Notes: generated by a model from the sequence alone, not told the origin. A stretch of DNA of 64,000 nucleotides from an uncultured Lachnospiraceae bacterium (GCA_947243855.1 CAMXIK010000007.1:1-64000); one strand, 5' to 3'. Numbered from the stretch's first letter, positions 1 through 13,317 are shown. Numbers and translations are program-made.

Positions 1-5
1 ACACA

Positions 6-709
6 GGTTCACCCCCGCCTACGCGGGGAAAAGTATAAGACTGACATTGGGGGGGTGCAGATACAGTAGGTTCACCCCCGCCTACGCGGGGAAAAGGGTG
101 CTGTCCAGAACTATTTTTTCTATCCGTCCGGTTCACCCCCGCCTACGCGGGGAAAAGGGATCGGGCAAATGGAAAACCAGACTTCTTTAAGGTTCACCCC
201 CGCCTACGCGGGGAAAAGTTCAGGATCAGGCGTATCTGGTTCAGATAGGCAGGTTCACCCCCGCCTACGCGGGGAAAAGTACCTCCGCACGGTTTAATAC
301 GTTCCCGCTCTCGGGTTCACCCCCGCCTACGCGGGGAAAAGGTACATCTATGAGTGATAAAGAAAAAAGAAATAGGTTCACCCCCGCCTACGCGGGGAAA
401 AGGGATCGGGCAAATGGAAAACCAGACTTCTTTAAGGTTCACCCCCGCCTACGCGGGGAAAAGAGCGAAAGCGGCATATCTGCCGGAATGTATGTAGGTT
501 CACCCCCGCCTACGCGGGGAAAAGCTTCTCCCTGTGCTTCTTTATCTCCACATCAAGGGTTCACCCCCGCCTACGCGGGGAAAAGGATGTCCATCCATGT
601 ATGTGGATCTCCTCACAAAGGTTCACCCCCGCCTACGCGGGGAAAAGTCCAACATAGCCATGCAAGAAGCCATAGTATGAAGGTTCACCCCCGCCTACGC
701 GGGGAAAAG
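6..709 (-). CRISPR. Type I-E CRISPR array: 12 identical 28-nt repeats (plus-strand GGTTCACCCCCGCCTACGCGGGGAAAAG), 11 complete spacers of 33-35 nt
   Basis: Repeat starts read at 6, 69, 130, 191, 252, 314, 375, 436, 497, 558, 620, 682. The reverse complement CTTTTCCCCGCGTAGGCGGGGGTGAACC resembles I-E repeats of the GTTTTCCCCGC..GCGGGGGTGATCC type, so transcription is probably on the minus strand, co-directional with cas. The distal end is cut by the window start. Confidence 0.98.
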
Positions 710-747: not shown

Positions 748-2590
<1,843 letters not shown>

Positions 2591-3205
2591 TTATACCCTT
2601 ACGATCGTCATAAGACCTTGTCCATACGCCTTTTCTCTTCCAATCCCCTTACAAAGCGTCTCCCTAAATTTTTCGGCGTCTGATATTGTCAGCATACCTT
2701 CAAATGTCACAGATAGCAAACGGATATTTGCCGACTTATCCCCATCCTTTTTACTAAAGCTATACCACTTTGACCACACTGTCTGAAATTCATTATCCTC
2801 TAACAAAAACCCACATCGCTCCGCCCTGTCCATCAGCCACTTTTTTTGATATTCAGGTGTAACATGAGCCATTATCTTACCATGAGATTTCGAAATCGTT
2901 GGATTTGCCGTTAGCTTGAAACGCCATTTCATACCGTCCGAAACTCTGTTGAGAAGAATTGCATAATCTTTTGTCTCATACACACCCGCATAACCAAACT
3001 GTCCCACAAAATGTTCTAGGTTTGGTATCTCTTCACTCAAAATCAACATATATTTTTTCCCATTTAGATCATCTATTCTCCAAAGACGGCGAGCTCTGCC
3101 TCCGCTGAAGGACTCCTCAATCGCACCATGAAACTTGCTTGGAGATACAAGCGCTTTCATCGTCTTCCGCAATCCTATATTAAGCTCGATCCGTGATAAA
3201 TACAT
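2591..3205 (-). CDS. cas6e: Type I-E crRNA endoribonuclease Cas6e (Cse3)
   Basis: MYLSRIELN start and C-terminal GIGREKAYGQGLMTIVRV glycine-rich motif; gene order. Confidence 0.95.
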   Translation of the reverse strand: MYLSRIELNIGLRKTMKALVSPSKFHGAIEESFSGGRARRLWRIDDLNGKKYMLILSEEIPNLEHFVGQFGYAGVYETKDYAILLNRVSDGMKWRFKLTANPTISKSHGKIMAHVTPEYQKKWLMDRAERCGFLLEDNEFQTVWSKWYSFSKKDGDKSANIRLLSVTFEGMLTISDAEKFRETLCKGIGREKAYGQGLMTIVRV

Positions 3206-3209
3206 AATT

Positions 3210-3860
3210 TCACCTCAATTCCGACATAGCATCATGTTCTGATGGATTTTGATTCAGCTCCACATAAAATTCTTTGACCTTACGATAACCATAGATTCGT
3301 TTTTGCGGGTCAAAAGATACCGGCACATCCTGCGCCATTCCTGCCTGCAAATCATTCGTTTCTATTTGTATCCGTATGGTTTTTTCTCTATTTTCACAGA
3401 CGGATGGTTCTTCAATCAACGCTTCTTCAAGCGTCTTATGGCGAATCCCAATCACGATTGGCGGCGTTGGCGGACAAGACCGTCTTCCTAAAAAAAGTGG
3501 AAAACAAGGATTCTGCAAAGCATTTTCCAACTCCTCAATTATTTTTTCATTCCCTTCAAGTCCTGCTAAAAAAACAGCATCCGAAAGGTAATGCCGATAC
3601 GTTACATAAGAATCCTTTCCCTTTTGGGTTCTGGCAATATGAAAGTCAGTTATATGCTCTCCCTCACGATCTGCACGGACGCCAAATTTCAAATCAGTAA
3701 GTTTCGTCAAATCTGCATTTCTCTCCCATCCCAACGCCGCTGCCAACATTCCCACGACACCACTTTTGGTCGGCATTTTTTCAGTTGTTCTTGTCTCAAA
3801 TTTTGAACTATTCCCCCACGACTGCAAGGGCGCCGCAAGTCTTAAAAGCAATGTGGACAT
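3210..3860 (-). CDS. cas5e: Type I-E Cascade subunit Cas5e
   Basis: MSTLLLRLAAPLQSWGNSSKFETRTTEKMPTKSGVVGMLAAALGW; start trimmed from the ORF start at 3875 to the internal Met. Confidence 0.95.
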   Translation of the reverse strand: MSTLLLRLAAPLQSWGNSSKFETRTTEKMPTKSGVVGMLAAALGWERNADLTKLTDLKFGVRADREGEHITDFHIARTQKGKDSYVTYRHYLSDAVFLAGLEGNEKIIEELENALQNPCFPLFLGRRSCPPTPPIVIGIRHKTLEEALIEEPSVCENREKTIRIQIETNDLQAGMAQDVPVSFDPQKRIYGYRKVKEFYVELNQNPSEHDAMSELR

Positions 3861-3861
3861 A

Positions 3862-4911
3862 CTATTTACCCTCACTTTCAGACAAATTCTCCTTCACCGC
3901 CGTATCTAATGCAAGAAAAATCTGAGCAAGATTGCCGTCCTCAAATGTCCAACTTTTTTCAGGAGCGCACGCGTAATTTTTATATACTTTTTGAGAATAT
4001 TCTTTTAATGCCTTTTCAGACATTTCAACATAACCGCCCTCTTTTCCTGAAACCGGCTTTTCAAAAGCGCCGCAAAGATTGATCGGCTGATCCTTTCTTA
4101 GTGTTATATAAATATAATCTGGAACCGTACGATTGGCAAATGTATTCTGTTTCCCTGTAGGCATAGATTTAATAAAAGATTCAATAAACCCTTGCACTAC
4201 ATCAGGTGTACGTTCGCCAAGCTGCTTATAAAGTTCTTTGACATTCACTGTCGCATATCTATAAAGCGTTGCAGAAGTAAACTCAACCGTCCCTAAATGC
4301 CCTGCGCCGGCTTCATTATCGCTTATCAAATCGTCAACAGCCGTAAAATAATCGTACTCATTGTGAACCGTATGCGTAGATATCGCATGCGCGACCTGAA
4401 CTGCCGCATCAATATTTAACCCTGCGTCGGCTGCTACCATACGTCCAAATAATGCCATATCAACAGACGGAGATTCCTTAACTGCCGCTTGATATTCCTT
4501 TTTATCGCCGCATCCTTCAATTGCCAGCTTTGCTAATGCCTTGGCCTGCGCCATACTAAAAAACATTAGCACGTCTGTTTTATTCTCTTTATTGGACTTT
4601 ACACCTATGTAATCCAACGCCTTGGATGCAAGTTTTAATGCCTTTTCATCATCTACGCTATCGTCAATCCTCTTAATCTCCTCAGCAATCATCTGGGGAA
4701 TCTTTTTCGTGCGAACGCCGATCTCTTCCTGATTAAAAATCTCTTCAAACATCTTCCTCATCTCATATTTCCATGCCTGCGAAGAAACTCTCGCTCTCAC
4801 CGTTCCGCCATACTTAGCAGTTTTAGGGCTTCCGGTATCGTCGCGGTTTACACAGCTCGGGGGAACATTTTGCAAAACATGAATGTCTACATACAAATTA
4901 TTTCTTGTCAT
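3862..4911 (-). CDS. cas7e: Type I-E Cascade backbone subunit Cas7e (Cse4/CasC)
   Basis: YVDIHVLQNVPPSCVNRDDTGSPKTAKYGGTVRARVSSQAWKYEMR; start trimmed from 4935. Confidence 0.96.
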   Translation of the reverse strand: MTRNNLYVDIHVLQNVPPSCVNRDDTGSPKTAKYGGTVRARVSSQAWKYEMRKMFEEIFNQEEIGVRTKKIPQMIAEEIKRIDDSVDDEKALKLASKALDYIGVKSNKENKTDVLMFFSMAQAKALAKLAIEGCGDKKEYQAAVKESPSVDMALFGRMVAADAGLNIDAAVQVAHAISTHTVHNEYDYFTAVDDLISDNEAGAGHLGTVEFTSATLYRYATVNVKELYKQLGERTPDVVQGFIESFIKSMPTGKQNTFANRTVPDYIYITLRKDQPINLCGAFEKPVSGKEGGYVEMSEKALKEYSQKVYKNYACAPEKSWTFEDGNLAQIFLALDTAVKENLSESEGK

Positions 4912-5491
4912 CGTTCTCTTCCTTTCCGTTTTCATTTGTTTTTATTTTTCGGTAAAAATCCTGTCCCCATTTCAGCCGTATCCTATCTACATACTTTTCA
5001 GACTGAAACAGAAACAGATCTTTTGCAAGATCAACATAATCCAATGGTATATCCTTCGCACTGAGCAATCTAACCAGCGTTTTCAATCGATACGCCAATT
5101 CTTCCATATCATCAGACTGTGCTGCCAGACTAAGTTTAAATCTAATACGTTCTTCCTCCTCATCACTATGTACAAGTTTTCTTGCCGAGCATCCCAACGA
5201 GTTGTCTTTCCCCTGCAAATTCACCGACTCGGAATGCCCCTGCTGGTGAAGAGCAAAAAGCGTCAGAGCCGTATAAATTGCCCACTCTGCACGAGTTGGA
5301 TCGCATCCTTTACTCATCAGTTCTTCCGGAAGTGTTTGCAAAAATATCCCCCACAATTCCGGAAGCTCTCCCGGACTTTTACCAATGCCTCTACGAAGTT
5401 GCGCAAGCTGTCCCTTGGCTTCTCCCGCATTCAAATTACCTGTCAATAAAAATAATCGTCCTCTCACATATTCCCCAACCGCATTAACCAC
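4898..5491 (-). CDS. cse2: Type I-E Cascade small subunit Cse2 (CasB)
   Basis: Position between cas7e and cas8e; size 197 aa; AxLRRGIGKSPGELPELW-type motif. Confidence 0.93.
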   Translation of the reverse strand: MVNAVGEYVRGRLFLLTGNLNAGEAKGQLAQLRRGIGKSPGELPELWGIFLQTLPEELMSKGCDPTRAEWAIYTALTLFALHQQGHSESVNLQGKDNSLGCSARKLVHSDEEEERIRFKLSLAAQSDDMEELAYRLKTLVRLLSAKDIPLDYVDLAKDLFLFQSEKYVDRIRLKWGQDFYRKIKTNENGKEENDDKK

Positions 5492-5507: not shown

Positions 5508-7112
5508 TTATGCGTCTTTTAATGAGTTCAATTCGTACTCAAAACGATTCATCGCTTTCGCAACAGAATATCCTTTTTCAGAACTTCCCAAGATTGCTGT
5601 CGAAACAGTCTGCTTCACAATCTCTTTTCCTAAATCTTCCGCAACACTAAAGCAAATATCTCTCCACGCTCTCTCTTTCTGCTCCACATCATCCGTCTCC
5701 GGTATAATCATACAAAGCCATTTTCGAAACGGTGCATCCACACGATTATAAAACTCCGCTTTCCATTTATTTGCATAAACTTTGGCAGGACATTTCTCTT
5801 CTTTTGGAATATAATCTCCTCCTTCTGCAACATTTACATCTTTAGCAAAGTTCCATACTTTTTCGGAAACACTATCACAAAATGCAACGCAATTAACGAT
5901 GCTGTTCTGCCAACTATGATTCATATTCGAAATTAACGCCGCATGCATTTGAATGGAATCGGAAAATACATTGACTACAAAAAAGTCCTTATCTCCATAT
6001 TGTATCGATGCAATTTTTACATTCAAAGAATGATCTTTTAGTATATCCTCACTCTCCAATTTATCCACCCATGAAATAACACCCGGGCGATGCACATTTT
6101 CTCTGATTTGAAGGAATGAAGAAAAATTTCTCCAGAACTGTTTTGATGGATTATGCCTGCGAGGCACAAATATTTCATTCCTTTTTCGATCCGCCTGTCT
6201 CCAAATTGTCATTGGCTCGATAAACGCATTTTCTCTTTCAAAGAAATCTCCTCCAAGTAAATGATATCCTGTTACGTATTCTCCTTTTCTAGTTAAATAT
6301 AGTCTTCTTGATTGCAATGTATATAGTGCAGATAAATTATCGGGCAGAGGAATCTCTATTCGTTCTCCATCAGCGACTCCGTCGCGTTCCCAAACCGGTT
6401 TTTCTTCTCCCCACAGTTCTCCATGTTCATTTAACAAAACCATATTTAACATAAGGGTTTCAAAAAGGGTATTCCCTGAAACACTGATAAGTCCCAATTT
6501 CCCAAGCCAGCCGACTCCAGGAGACGGCAACTTTGTGCCGGTCAGTTTAGACTCGCTGGATGGTTTTGCCGAAGTATCATCATAAGCGTTCACATAAATA
6601 AGCCACCTCGCCGCCTCCGAAAAATCTACGGTTTCCTTCCTTTGTCCGCTCACACTAGAAAACAAACGAATTTTGTTACTGCTCTCAGATAAATTTCCGT
6701 TTAATTTTGCCGCTGTATAAGCTGTCCCAATTTTCGCGCGCTCACACTGAAAAAACGGTCTTTCAGGATGAAACAAATAAAATTTTTCCCTCTGTGATTC
6801 CAAATACGCCGTTATCACTTCTGCCGGAAATTTTTTCCTTTCCCACAGTTCCTCCCAGCGATCCAACGCCTCGTCAGGATCATTTAATTTTACCGCATTT
6901 CCATGTCTGTCATATCTTGAAAACACTGTATGTAAAACTGCAAGCAATACCCTCATTACAGCAAAATCCTGCGTAGGAAGCTCACCACACAAATCTCTAT
7001 ATCTGTGCGCGTCTCTAAATACATCCAAAAGAGAAACTTCCGTCATATTACAGTTATCGTCAATCACACATATCCACCGTTCATCAAGCAAATTAAATTC
7101 TTTGTCGCTCAA
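5508..7112 (-). CDS. cas8e: Type I-E Cascade large subunit Cas8e (Cse1/CasA)
   Basis: FNLLDERWICVID start, ELPTQDFAVMRVLLAVLHTVF, position next to cas3. Confidence 0.95.
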   Translation of the reverse strand: MSDKEFNLLDERWICVIDDNCNMTEVSLLDVFRDAHRYRDLCGELPTQDFAVMRVLLAVLHTVFSRYDRHGNAVKLNDPDEALDRWEELWERKKFPAEVITAYLESQREKFYLFHPERPFFQCERAKIGTAYTAAKLNGNLSESSNKIRLFSSVSGQRKETVDFSEAARWLIYVNAYDDTSAKPSSESKLTGTKLPSPGVGWLGKLGLISVSGNTLFETLMLNMVLLNEHGELWGEEKPVWERDGVADGERIEIPLPDNLSALYTLQSRRLYLTRKGEYVTGYHLLGGDFFERENAFIEPMTIWRQADRKRNEIFVPRRHNPSKQFWRNFSSFLQIRENVHRPGVISWVDKLESEDILKDHSLNVKIASIQYGDKDFFVVNVFSDSIQMHAALISNMNHSWQNSIVNCVAFCDSVSEKVWNFAKDVNVAEGGDYIPKEEKCPAKVYANKWKAEFYNRVDAPFRKWLCMIIPETDDVEQKERAWRDICFSVAEDLGKEIVKQTVSTAILGSSEKGYSVAKAMNRFEYELNSLKDA

Positions 7113-9787
7113 TTTGTTTTCTCCTCCATCTTTATGTATGCAAGACCGTTATCACGAGAATAGGAAATATGATATCCACACAATTCATTTGTCAGGTTTT
7201 CATTAAGCAACAATACCAGCTCTCCCTTAAGCCAATGCGATTTTTGAAATCCCGTCAAATACCTATCCATCTGTTCCAGTTCTTCTATTGTTCTGTCCAC
7301 GTTCCACACCTGAGAAAATATTGTAGGAAGCCTCAGCTTTTGCTGTGCAATCAAACGACAGTCATTCTCCGGCGGACAAATGTCCGCTAAATATCTTTTC
7401 TCATTCGAGTTCCATGGTAAAAATCCCAGCGTTCCATCCGAATACGCCACCAATATAATGACCTCAATTGATGAAATCCCATCTCGTACAGCCGCCAATG
7501 CTTTATCCTCGTTATCTCCCACACTGTTTTCCAACCAATCGTGAAGGTTATTTTGCCGTCTACTGTCTCTTGGCGGAGACATTAAAAAGGCTTTTGCACG
7601 TTGCTCTTTTTTTTGAATTAAATTCTTATAGTCAGCAAATGCTTCTTTTCCCTCTTTCTCATTAGGAATGACTTCCCGATATGTTTCACAAATTAAACTG
7701 TCAATGTCTTTAGGAATAACAATGCTGTCAGGCAGCAGCTCTCTCGTTCGCAAAAGAAGCCATTTGGTATAAATATGCTCCGATTCTGTGTTGAGTTCTT
7801 TCACTCCCAAAACGATACACTTTGCACTGTTATAGTTAAAAGGCCTGTCCTGACGTTCATGACGGTGCATCCTGCCAATCCTTTGAAGCAGAAGATCCAT
7901 CGGACATAAATCCGTTATCAACAAATCGAAATCAATATCCAACGACTGTTCAAGGACCTGTGTTCCAATTACAATAGTCCCTTTTCTCATCGAAAAATCA
8001 GATTTTTTCCCAACCGCTTTTTTCAAAGCATCTTCTTTCTCTATTCGATCGGAAATGATAAATTGTGCATGATAAATAATCACTTTTGCTCCAACAATCT
8101 CCCGTGCCAATTCCGCAAAACGCTGTGCTCTGGAAACCGTATTGCAGATAATACCAGCACACGCCCCTGCCTTTACCACACACTTTATTTCTTCAATGAT
8201 ATCTTCCTCTGCCATTGAAACTATCTGAATTTTTTTCTCAGAAGATGTCAGAGATAACCCTTTCGTTCTCACCTGTTCTCCATCAGTATAAGTAAGTCGC
8301 GGATAGGGAATCGCATTTACTTCATCATCTTGCTGTGTCCGTCTCAAATATGCATTAATAAGCTCCTGCCGTCTGTTTGCCGGGAGTGTCGCCGATAACA
8401 GAATAACCGGGATTTTGTATTCATGCAGCCATGCCAACGCCCTGTCAAGGTATTGATTCATATAAGCGTCGTACGCATGGCATTCGTCTACGATAACAAC
8501 CTTTTGAGACAGTCCCAAATGTAACAACATCGCATGTTTCTTCTTTAAAACTGACATCAACAGACGATCAACTGTTCCAACTACAAAATCTGATAAAAGC
8601 GATTGCTTACTCCCCATAAAAAAAGCATGTACAATCAGCCCGCTTTCCTCTCCTCCGTCTTCATCAATGCACGGAATACTTTTTTGCATATTTACGAATG
8701 TAGGTTGAAATTCCGCGTTGCCATGCGCCAGATTTATGCTGTGAAATGCCTCCGAGGACTGTAGTTTTGCCCACTGCGCCACACGTTCAAAAATACCATT
8801 AGCCGTTGCCTGTGTAGGCAATCCAAAAAAAATCCCCGTTTTTTCAAATCTATTCGCCAAAATTTCGGCTACCGAAAGAGCTGCCTCCGTTTTTCCAATC
8901 CCCATCGGCGCTTCCAAAATAAACAGCCCTGGTGATTTTACATCTTCAACTGTTTCAATAACCGACTTTTGTATTTCATTCATGAAGAATCCAAAACGTT
9001 CATTAAAATCCTCTTCAAAAATACGTTCCTGTTCCGGCTCCCATACTTCAGGCAGACCCATTCTATCCAAGGCAGTTTCAAAACGTTTATCGGGATATTC
9101 ACTCTCAGACAAAATCTGATCTTCATCTATTAATTCAAACTTAGACTGATCGCTGGCCAACCAGTCCGCCATGATGAGCAATCCAGATAACAGTATCTGC
9201 GTTCTTTTATTCAGCTTTATCATTTCAGACACATCAGAAAATCCCGCTCTCTCAAGTGAAAACGCTCCCCATTCTTTGTAGAAATTCTCCCAAACGATAT
9301 GCTGTTGGGGACTCCCGAAAAAATGCTTTTGATAATTGTCTATGTGATTTTTCACATCTTCTGCCGGCATGCCGTGATGTGCCCCGACGATAGATGCAAA
9401 TTCATTAGGGAATCCCATGTAAAGCAATATTGCCTCGCCACACTTTGCGTGGTGAGAATATTTCTTATTAATAAAGTCCGAGTATTCTGGCACATGGATA
9501 CCATAATGCTCAAATACTGTCCTTCTTTCCGGCAGCGATTCTAATATCTTAGCCTGAAACAGCGGCGAAATTTTTCCAATGTCATGAAGATATGCAAGAA
9601 GTATCCCTGTTTTCTTTAAGTCCTCAAACGACATTCCACATATCTGCGCCAGCCCTTGATATCTTTTATGCAGCAAATATTTCATAACATTTGCAGTATC
9701 TTTCGCATGCATCCAAAGAGGAAGCCAGTTGTTGCTCTCATAAGCAGATTTAGCGATAATCAGTTTTATTGCATTCGAAAGTTGCAA
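7109..9787 (-). CDS. cas3: CRISPR-associated helicase/nuclease Cas3 (HD + DExH helicase)
   Basis: HD motif YLHDIGK; Walker A APMGIGKTEAAL; DECH box VIVDECHAYDAY; QRIGRMHRH motif VI; apparent TTG start preceded by GAGAGGAAAAG. Confidence 0.97.
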   Translation of the reverse strand: MQLSNAIKLIIAKSAYESNNWLPLWMHAKDTANVMKYLLHKRYQGLAQICGMSFEDLKKTGILLAYLHDIGKISPLFQAKILESLPERRTVFEHYGIHVPEYSDFINKKYSHHAKCGEAILLYMGFPNEFASIVGAHHGMPAEDVKNHIDNYQKHFFGSPQQHIVWENFYKEWGAFSLERAGFSDVSEMIKLNKRTQILLSGLLIMADWLASDQSKFELIDEDQILSESEYPDKRFETALDRMGLPEVWEPEQERIFEEDFNERFGFFMNEIQKSVIETVEDVKSPGLFILEAPMGIGKTEAALSVAEILANRFEKTGIFFGLPTQATANGIFERVAQWAKLQSSEAFHSINLAHGNAEFQPTFVNMQKSIPCIDEDGGEESGLIVHAFFMGSKQSLLSDFVVGTVDRLLMSVLKKKHAMLLHLGLSQKVVIVDECHAYDAYMNQYLDRALAWLHEYKIPVILLSATLPANRRQELINAYLRRTQQDDEVNAIPYPRLTYTDGEQVRTKGLSLTSSEKKIQIVSMAEEDIIEEIKCVVKAGACAGIICNTVSRAQRFAELAREIVGAKVIIYHAQFIISDRIEKEDALKKAVGKKSDFSMRKGTIVIGTQVLEQSLDIDFDLLITDLCPMDLLLQRIGRMHRHERQDRPFNYNSAKCIVLGVKELNTESEHIYTKWLLLRTRELLPDSIVIPKDIDSLICETYREVIPNEKEGKEAFADYKNLIQKKEQRAKAFLMSPPRDSRRQNNLHDWLENSVGDNEDKALAAVRDGISSIEVIILVAYSDGTLGFLPWNSNEKRYLADICPPENDCRLIAQQKLRLPTIFSQVWNVDRTIEELEQMDRYLTGFQKSHWLKGELVLLLNENLTNELCGYHISYSRDNGLAYIKMEEKTN

Positions 9788-9823
9788 ATTCTTTTCCTCT
9801 CTTCATTTGCCATATGGAAAACG

Positions 9824-10120
9824 CTACTTTTGTTTCCAGTATTGCTTTAACTGCTCGTAAAAGTTCTCCCTCGTTCCGGCCATGATAACGACAATCACCT
9901 TGTCCGCTGTATACTCTACCGTGTAAGCAAGTTCATAGTTTGTTTTATTATAATAAATGTCGTACCCATATATACCGGCCAAATCTCCGGTTTTCACCTC
10001 GCCAACCGTATGATCTTTCCGAATTTTGTCCACCGCTTCCTGATATAACGACTTTAATCTTTTGTCTTTTATTTTTTTTATGAATTTAGCAGCCGGCGGA
10101 AGAAAGACCACTTCTGTCAT
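9824..10120 (-). CDS. Type II toxin, RelE/ParE superfamily
   Basis: 98 aa; FLPPAAKFIKKIKDKRLKSLYQEAVDKIRKDH...DIYYNKTNYELAYTVE...VVIMAGTRENFYEQLKQYWK; 4-nt overlap with an upstream AbrB-like gene. Confidence 0.8.
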   Translation of the reverse strand: MTEVVFLPPAAKFIKKIKDKRLKSLYQEAVDKIRKDHTVGEVKTGDLAGIYGYDIYYNKTNYELAYTVEYTADKVIVVIMAGTRENFYEQLKQYWKQK

Positions 10121-10497
10121 CCCTCATCCTCCATACCAAAAACATCGTTATAAGAAGCAAAAGGACTTTCTGCTGTCGCCGCGCGTTTCGCCTCCTCAAG
10201 CATTCCCTCCACCGCCGGGCGAACCTGACTTTGCGCTTCTTTAAACCGAAAAAGCAGTTCATCGCCGCTATATCCCTGTTTAATTAAATCCGCCAATATC
10301 TGTTCCGCAAATTCTCCCCCTGCGCTTGTCTTTACGGGACGTATCACCAATTCATTTCCACGAATCATGCACTCCGCTTCCGTATCAAATCCTAATGTAG
10401 AAAAAAATTTTTGAGGAATCGTGATCTGCCGTTTTGCCGAAATAGCGATTTTTTTCATTTCCATAACGGGTTTCTCTCTCATCATTGCCACTGACAT
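10117..10497 (-). CDS. Antitoxin with AbrB/MazE/SpoVT-like DNA-binding domain
   Basis: KKIAISAKRQITIPQKFFSTLGFDTEAECMIRGNELVIRPV swapped-hairpin pattern; overlaps the toxin gene. Met11 is an alternative start. Confidence 0.8.
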   Translation of the reverse strand: MSVAMMREKPVMEMKKIAISAKRQITIPQKFFSTLGFDTEAECMIRGNELVIRPVKTSAGGEFAEQILADLIKQGYSGDELLFRFKEAQSQVRPAVEGMLEEAKRAATAESPFASYNDVFGMEDEG

Positions 10498-10525
10498 TAT
10501 TTATTCTCTCCATATTCTACACAAT

Positions 10526-10555
10526 TCAAAGAAAAAATATTCTTGGTTTCTTTGA
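10526..10555. promoter_or_regulatory. Inverted repeat TCAAAGAAA-N12-TTTCTTTGA, candidate antitoxin operator
   Basis: Perfect 9-bp arms at 10526-10534 and 10547-10555, overlapping the predicted TSS region of the TA/cas promoter. Confidence 0.55.
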
Positions 10556-10557
10556 TT

Positions 10558-10586
10558 ATTATATCTAACTTCTCCCTTTTCGTCAA
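10558..10586 (-). promoter_or_regulatory. Promoter upstream of the AbrB/RelE/cas3 gene run (TTGACG-17-TATAAT)
   Basis: Minus strand TTGACG AAAAGGGAGAAGTTAGA TATAAT with exact 17-nt spacer. Confidence 0.8.
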
Positions 10587-10594
10587 CTAAATAG

Positions 10595-10627
10595 AAAAAG
10601 CCGAGAACCTTTCTCAGATTCCCGGCT
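10595..10627 (-). terminator. Rho-independent terminator downstream of spoIVA
   Basis: Minus strand AGCCGGGAA..TTCTCGGCT followed by TTTTTC (one mismatch in stem). Confidence 0.7.
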
Positions 10628-10632
10628 TACCT

Positions 10633-12243: not shown

Positions 12244-13317
12244 TTACTGCTTCAGCTTATGAAAAATAATGCAGTTAGGCTGTTCCACTTTAATCTCTTT
12301 ACCGTTCATCACAAGAAGCCCGTTCTTTAAGTCCACTGTGAAGAAAGTCATTGTGTCCGATTCGTGGTTTAAGGAAACAAGATGCCTGTTATCTGGGAAC
12401 AGATTCGCATCCTTGGGATAATCCCCGCTGATCGGCAGGCACAAAATCTTAGACAGCATCCCCGTCTTCTGATCGACACTATAGATCGTCGCACTGTTGT
12501 CCCCCGCATTGGAACTTACCACATATTTAAAATCCTCCGAAATGTTAAGGGCACTGGCAGCGGAACCGCCCGCATGATAATCATTCAATGTGGAAATCGT
12601 CTGAATTTTCTCAAACTCCGGAATACCGTGTTTCTCTTCATAAGTGTAGACATCAATGTAATTTTTCAACTCGTGGACAATATAGAGAATATGCCCGTCC
12701 TTTGAAAATTTCAAATGGCGGGGCGCGGACTCTTGCTCACTGCGGATCATATCAATGGGCTTTAATGTGCCCCTCTCGTGATCCACGCGGTATACATTTA
12801 CATGGTCAAGTCCCAGGTCCGCGGCACACAAATAATGGTTATCTCTTGTCATCTTCACGCAGTTCACATGGGGCCTGAAATTCCGCTCCGCAATACTGCC
12901 CAGCCCTTTGTGGTAAACTTCATCCGTAATCTCACCGATCCCGCCGTCCTCCCGCAGACGCAGCACCGTAATTTTCCCGTCATGGTAGCCGCCCACAAAA
13001 AGGAGTTTGTCTTCATAATCCGTGGACAGATAACACCCTCTCATGCCATTGATCGTACCCTCGTTTATGACCTCCAGATCTCCGCCCGGCAGTATCTTAT
13101 AAGCTTCCACCCCGAAATCCGTGATCGAATACAGATATTTCTCATTGTGAGAAATAGAAATATAGGAGGAGTTCGTGATCTCCACCTGATTTTTCTCCGT
13201 CATTCTGCCGTTCTTCATATCCACATCATAAATTTTAATGCCGTAATTATCCTCTTTTGCCGTCGTGTAAGTGGACACATAAGCCACATATTTATCCTGA
13301 CCCATCGCCATAACCAT
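12244..13317 (-). CDS. Lactonase-family beta-propeller protein (6-phosphogluconolactonase-like)
   Basis: YVSTYTT start, repeated beta-propeller blades, RPHVNCVKMTRDNHYLCAADLGLDHVNVY, SAPRHLKFSKDGHILYIVHEL. Confidence 0.8.
   Translation of the reverse strand: MVMAMGQDKYVAYVSTYTTAKEDNYGIKIYDVDMKNGRMTEKNQVEITNSSYISISHNEKYLYSITDFGVEAYKILPGGDLEVINEGTINGMRGCYLSTDYEDKLLFVGGYHDGKITVLRLREDGGIGEITDEVYHKGLGSIAERNFRPHVNCVKMTRDNHYLCAADLGLDHVNVYRVDHERGTLKPIDMIRSEQESAPRHLKFSKDGHILYIVHELKNYIDVYTYEEKHGIPEFEKIQTISTLNDYHAGGSAASALNISEDFKYVVSSNAGDNSATIYSVDQKTGMLSKILCLPISGDYPKDANLFPDNRHLVSLNHESDTMTFFTVDLKNGLLVMNGKEIKVEQPNCIIFHKLKQ

Follow-up and report, generated by a model that had tools for sequence, protein, structure and literature searches.

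Why does a toxin-antitoxin pair stand at the head of a complete type I-E CRISPR-cas operon, and are the cas genes transcribed from the promoter of the pair? The question is raised by a stretch of DNA of 64,000 nucleotides from an uncultured Lachnospiraceae bacterium (the window), in which an apparently AbrB-type antitoxin and a RelE-fold toxin directly precede cas3. A coupling of dormancy and immunity was put forward as a hypothesis in 2012 (PMC3506569), and in 2013 type II toxin-antitoxin pairs were described in type I cas loci, where the antitoxin gene comes first and most pairs lie on the same strand as the cas genes (PMC3936711). The present locus offers a natural case where such coupling could act via a shared promoter and not a guide RNA, and if the antitoxin controls cas, induction of CRISPR immunity and of the toxin could be followed on one transcript. 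Our preferred reading, to which we assign a probability of about 0.6, is that the cas operon is read through from the autoregulated promoter of the pair.

Layout of the locus

The type I-E gene set is complete (cas3, cas8e, cse2, cas7e, cas5e, cas6e, cas1e, cas2e and a CRISPR array), and the ten genes from the antitoxin to cas2 are tightly packed on the minus strand, some neighbours overlapping slightly and others standing 36, 16, 4 or 3 bp apart, the array coming next. Read along that strand, the features are:

10598-10628, minus strand: intrinsic-terminator-like hairpin of spoIVA (13-bp stem, T run), setting spoIVA apart from the operon
10558-10586, minus strand: predicted promoter TTGACG-17-TATAAT of the pair, probably of the whole cas operon (11/12 match)
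10526-10555, minus strand: candidate operator; direct units CAAAGAA (10554-10548) and CCAAGAA (10546-10540), 8 bp apart, and inverted TTTCTTTGA (10534-10526)
10117-10497, minus strand: putative AbrB-type antitoxin, 126 aa
9824-10120, minus strand: RelE-fold toxin (PF15781), 98 aa
9788-9823, minus strand: toxin-cas3 gap, 36 bp, with the cas3 ribosome-binding site inside and no terminator
7109-9787, minus strand: cas3, TTG start with AGAGGA ahead
5508-7112, minus strand: cas8e (cse1), 4-nt overlap with cas3
4898-5491, minus strand: cse2
3862-4935, minus strand: cas7e
3210-3875, minus strand: cas5e
2591-3205, minus strand: cas6e
1589-2587, minus strand: cas1e
748-1623, minus strand: cas2e fused to a DEDDh exonuclease
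1-709, minus strand: CRISPR array, 12 repeats in the window, continuing on contig C25

An earlier note on this DNA had placed the pair 36 bp upstream of cas3 on the same strand, with a 4-nt overlap between the antitoxin and toxin reading frames (ATGA, both minus strand), and these coordinates are correct. Its view of the pair and the cas genes as one operon agrees with their appearance, the genes being packed and no terminator-like site lying between toxin and cas3. Between these two genes the minus strand holds neither a terminator-like site nor a promoter-like site at the threshold of at least 9/12, as the note had described for the gap; a looser promoter scan of the window picks up TATATA-16-TATAAT within the toxin gene, 159 bp ahead of cas3. 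The promoter TTGACG-17-TATAAT was likewise confirmed just past the spoIVA terminator, and on the minus strand of the first 16 kb it is the best promoter-like site and the spoIVA terminator the strongest terminator-like signal. The same spoIVA hairpin is also found in G060, the closest relative, where the site is empty.

The array and the cas genes were judged to be read in one direction, based on the likeness of the repeats to those of E. coli and on the degenerate distal repeats. The contig of the window begins within the array (1-60) and overlaps the end of contig C25 (L153), so that the two are adjacent in the genome; C25 carries five more repeats, increasingly degenerate, and then pnp. Since this overlapping contig holds the far end of the array and, beyond it, the pnp promoter, the island of pair, cas genes and array lies between spoIVA and pnp. 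The promoter of the pair aligns with the pnp promoter at the empty site, and its derivation from the latter was considered and rejected: the pnp promoter is found beyond the array on C25, and pairs related to this one have a promoter of the same type, so that the promoter is more likely the pair's own.

The pair and its promoter-operator

The toxin scores 86.5 bits (cut-off 28) with the Pfam family PF15781 (ParE-like_toxin), and E. coli RelE (4fxe_E, TM 0.68, probability 1.0) is the best match to the structure predicted for it (mean pLDDT 87); profile score and fold thus agree in placing it in the RelE/ParE superfamily. Arg84 and Tyr88 are invariant among 43 relatives. We take Arg84 to correspond in position to the catalytic Arg81 of RelE, the remaining catalytic residues of which are presumably not retained. 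The antitoxin alone stays under the Pfam cut-offs and gave a poor structural model (pLDDT 61). A sequence motif, the strand order predicted in this poor model and a weak Pfam match in relatives (MazE/AbrB PF04014 in 5/38, best E 8e-4) point to an AbrB/MazE-like protein. Residues 62-87 weakly match the end of the YwpF profile PF14183 in 38/38 relatives (best E 1.8e-5), and this YwpF-like central part is possibly a common toxin-binding segment. PADLOC matched neither antitoxin nor toxin.

Relatives of the toxin were sought in genome contigs of 84,980 species, which yielded 104, of which 80 were kept; the scan demands that either of two conserved 8-residue stretches be present and so passes over more distant relatives. 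A protein antitoxin lies directly 5' of the toxin in 78 of the 80 fetched loci; contig ends truncate the remaining two.

Upstream regions usable for operator statistics were available for 73 relatives, 62 of which have a sigma-70 type promoter ahead of the pair. The element CAAAGAAA occurs in 52 of these 73 regions, where shuffled sequences predict 1.4, and ACCAAGAA in 44, where 0.6 are predicted. In 34 of the 62 promoters the first repeat unit lies 11 nt past the -10 box, and the spacing of separate units is 7 or 8 bp in most cases. The window conforms to this spacing, with repeats CAAAGAAA/CCAAGAA spaced by 8 bp at the start point of the promoter, CCAAGAA exactly 11 nt past the -10 box and CAAAGAA 8 bp before it. 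The inverted repeat reported earlier at the start point is present (TCAAAGAAA, 10555-10547, and TTTCTTTGA, 10534-10526) as one part of this operator; its 9 bp alone are too short for significance, which it gains from conservation in relatives. Judged from these upstream regions, promoter and repeats are the conserved promoter-operator of the toxin-antitoxin family itself, and the pair is a common, mobile type II toxin-antitoxin system with its own promoter and operator. We infer that the antitoxin binds the operator repeats.

Descent of the joined arrangement

Of 77 genomes of the genus surveyed, 3 contain a type I-E system and 5 the toxin. UBA7143 (G005) has spoIVA, the pair, cas3 to cas2 and the array in the same order at the same site. 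Its toxin-cas3 gap measures 27-33 bp, depending on the choice of cas3 start, and has no terminator-like site; a weak promoter-like TTGATA-16-TACAAT is located within the toxin gene. In both UBA7143 and the window the reading frames of the pair are intact and the operator is retained. In G035 of the same genus the I-E locus lacks the pair, a pair being present elsewhere in the genome, and a separate promoter TTGACA-16-GATAAT stands 39 bp upstream of cas3, where the window has no comparable site. G004 and G023 have a freestanding pair and no I-E system.

Among the other I-E loci with enough upstream sequence, the pair precedes cas3 in none of 17 (12 from the family, 4 from the order, and G035), and the ten nearby genes upstream of other I-E loci include no toxin-antitoxin family by Pfam. 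The pair is therefore not a regular I-E component. The recurrence upstream of cas3 in related I-E loci that the earlier note had looked to is borne out by UBA7143, with a similarly short gap, and not by these 17 loci; the regular lack of the pair, which the note had named as evidence against its proposal, holds outside the two-species lineage.

The two cas-linked pairs form one clade (support 100/98). Protein identity between the two species is 62-87% for cas and the pair and 94-96% for spoIVA, lactonase and PNP, a difference that suggested independent transfer of the island into each species. This was rejected, as synonymous divergence of the island equals that of the flanks (pS 0.49-0.70 for island genes; 0.60-0.65 for flanking genes, with 0.60-0.63 for spoIVA, lactonase and pnp), and the lower identity is thus attributed to faster protein change. 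dN/dS between the two species is about 0.06 for the toxin and 0.09 for the antitoxin. Clade, matching synonymous divergence and shared site together argue that a single joining event probably took place in the ancestor of these two Lachnospiraceae species, followed by shared descent with losses; because synonymous sites approach saturation, vertical descent counts as likely and not as proven. In G060 the site is empty, and in G039 it holds a truncated remnant of the pair and no cas genes, which indicates that the pair does not hold the island firmly in place.

The spoIVA-pnp interval is variable, and elsewhere in the genus it is occupied by unrelated genes. Beside the pair in UBA7143 lies a 70-bp fragment of the start of a membrane-protein gene (L009 ~13185-13260), of which an intact copy is found beyond the array (L009 1957-2604), and a similar fragment lies beside the pair remnant of G039; these fragments suggest the ancestral insertion point. 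Other toxin-antitoxin-looking pairs, judged by eye and not by profile, were seen in the same interval: HEPN/MNT-like in G039 and G005 (L154; L009 1018-1757) and DUF3791/DUF3990-like in G024 (L189 248-960).

Read-through, rival readings and known systems

According to the preferred reading, transcription from the promoter of the pair would continue through the toxin gene into cas3 and the rest of the operon to cas2. The antitoxin, alone or with the toxin, would repress this promoter at the repeats and keep cas low at rest, and its degradation or dilution upon stress or infection would allow cas to rise. The pair may also stabilise the island, the loss of which as a whole would leave the toxin without new antitoxin. 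Control of the toxin by cas proteins is neither needed nor seen. Read-through is supported by the contiguity of the genes and the short gaps without terminator-like sites in both species, and furthermore by the position of the sole strong promoter ahead of the antitoxin, whereas cas3 of G035 has a promoter of its own. The operator conserved among 73 relatives, the single clade, pS values like those of the flanks and low dN/dS lend further support. Counted against it are the weak sites within the toxin gene of the window and of UBA7143, either of which is a possible internal promoter, and the restriction of the arrangement to two species, with G060 empty and G039 carrying a remnant. A more far-reaching version makes the autoregulatory loop the master switch of the whole I-E operon, such that antitoxin degradation by phage or stress would free the toxin and at the same time induce Cascade/Cas3 from a single promoter, dormancy being followed by adaptive immunity; we consider this distinctly doubtful.

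The chief alternatives are island stabilisation and chance neighbourhood. Type II pairs are known stabilisers, and here the pair lies at one border of an island with a patchy distribution. It may thus kill or stall cells that lose the island, independently of any control over cas transcription, an explanation that is compatible with read-through and that we nevertheless hold to be somewhat unlikely, given that the island is missing from G060 and from most of the genus and that the pair has decayed in G039, where cas is absent.

It is also unlikely, in our estimate, that pair and I-E locus are chance neighbours in the variable spoIVA-pnp site, where a mobile pair came to lie beside cas genes with no useful regulatory link and with incidental read-through or a weak internal cas promoter. 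Among the 80 toxin loci cas genes adjoin the toxin only in UBA7143; relatives of the pair stand alone among diverse genes at about 80 other loci, and a terminator-like site within 200 nt is missing from most of them (present in 19/73). The unrelated genes at this site in other genus members and the 17 I-E loci without the pair fit chance as well, as do toxin relatives in 23 viral contigs, 22 from IMG/VR (L192-L213, 49-78% identical) and one distant (L214), by which the toxin family may travel with phages; a scan of viral contigs for relatives of the window cas3 gave none. Chance neighbourhood does not readily account for order, orientation and close spacing being kept in two species despite nearly saturated synonymous sites, nor for intact frames and a retained operator in both pairs.

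Repression of the pair by Cascade with a crRNA-like guide, so that cas loss releases the toxin, has precedents in CRISPR-repressed toxins, including that of Citrobacter rodentium type I-E (PMC12055562) and the protein toxin CrePA (PMC12737573), and is very improbable here, because the antitoxin is a protein gene and a search for a CreA-like guide or ectopic CRISPR repeat in the window and UBA7143 gave nothing outside the array above shuffled sequence. The best spacer match to the promoter of the pair is 18/33 with PAM CAT, which is chance level, as 64 kb contain 165 seed hits, of which 8 reach at least 18 matches. With the antitoxin encoded in cis, our data do not lend support to the earlier suggestion that the toxin would be set off if cas were lost.

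Among known combinations, PrlF-YhaV of E. coli (PMC5408214) comes nearest: there an AbrB-superfamily antitoxin controls its own operon with a RelE-superfamily toxin. That locus is not tied to CRISPR, and the likeness drawn here is at the level of superfamilies. CreTA and CrePA (PMC12737573) and the C. rodentium toxin (PMC12055562) resemble the present case in placing a toxin in or beside a type I cas locus, but are subject to Cascade-dependent repression by a crRNA-like antitoxin. The contrast with RNA-based CreTA drawn in the earlier note accordingly stands as to the protein antitoxin and lack of a guide; protein toxins tied to CRISPR have already been published, as have type I cas loci that contain type II pairs. 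Examples in the part of PMC3936711 considered here belong to Fic/Doc, Phd/YefM, MazE and Unstab_antitox families, compared with an AbrB-type antitoxin and RelE-fold toxin here, and that part does not go into whether a promoter is shared, an operator conserved or descent common. In Clostridioides difficile, toxin-antitoxin modules of type I also adjoin CRISPR in a member of the Clostridia, but, as described in PMC6079278, they have an RNA antitoxin and lie beside arrays, not at the head of a cas operon. New in the present case is evidence that a complete I-E operon has no recognisable strong promoter other than the conserved promoter-operator of such a pair, and that two species have kept the joined form.

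The array contains an identical 33-nt spacer twice, at 158-190 and 403-435, with three other spacers between. The 3'-5' exonuclease (DEDDh) fusion of Cas2e has near full-length similarity in most other I-E loci examined.
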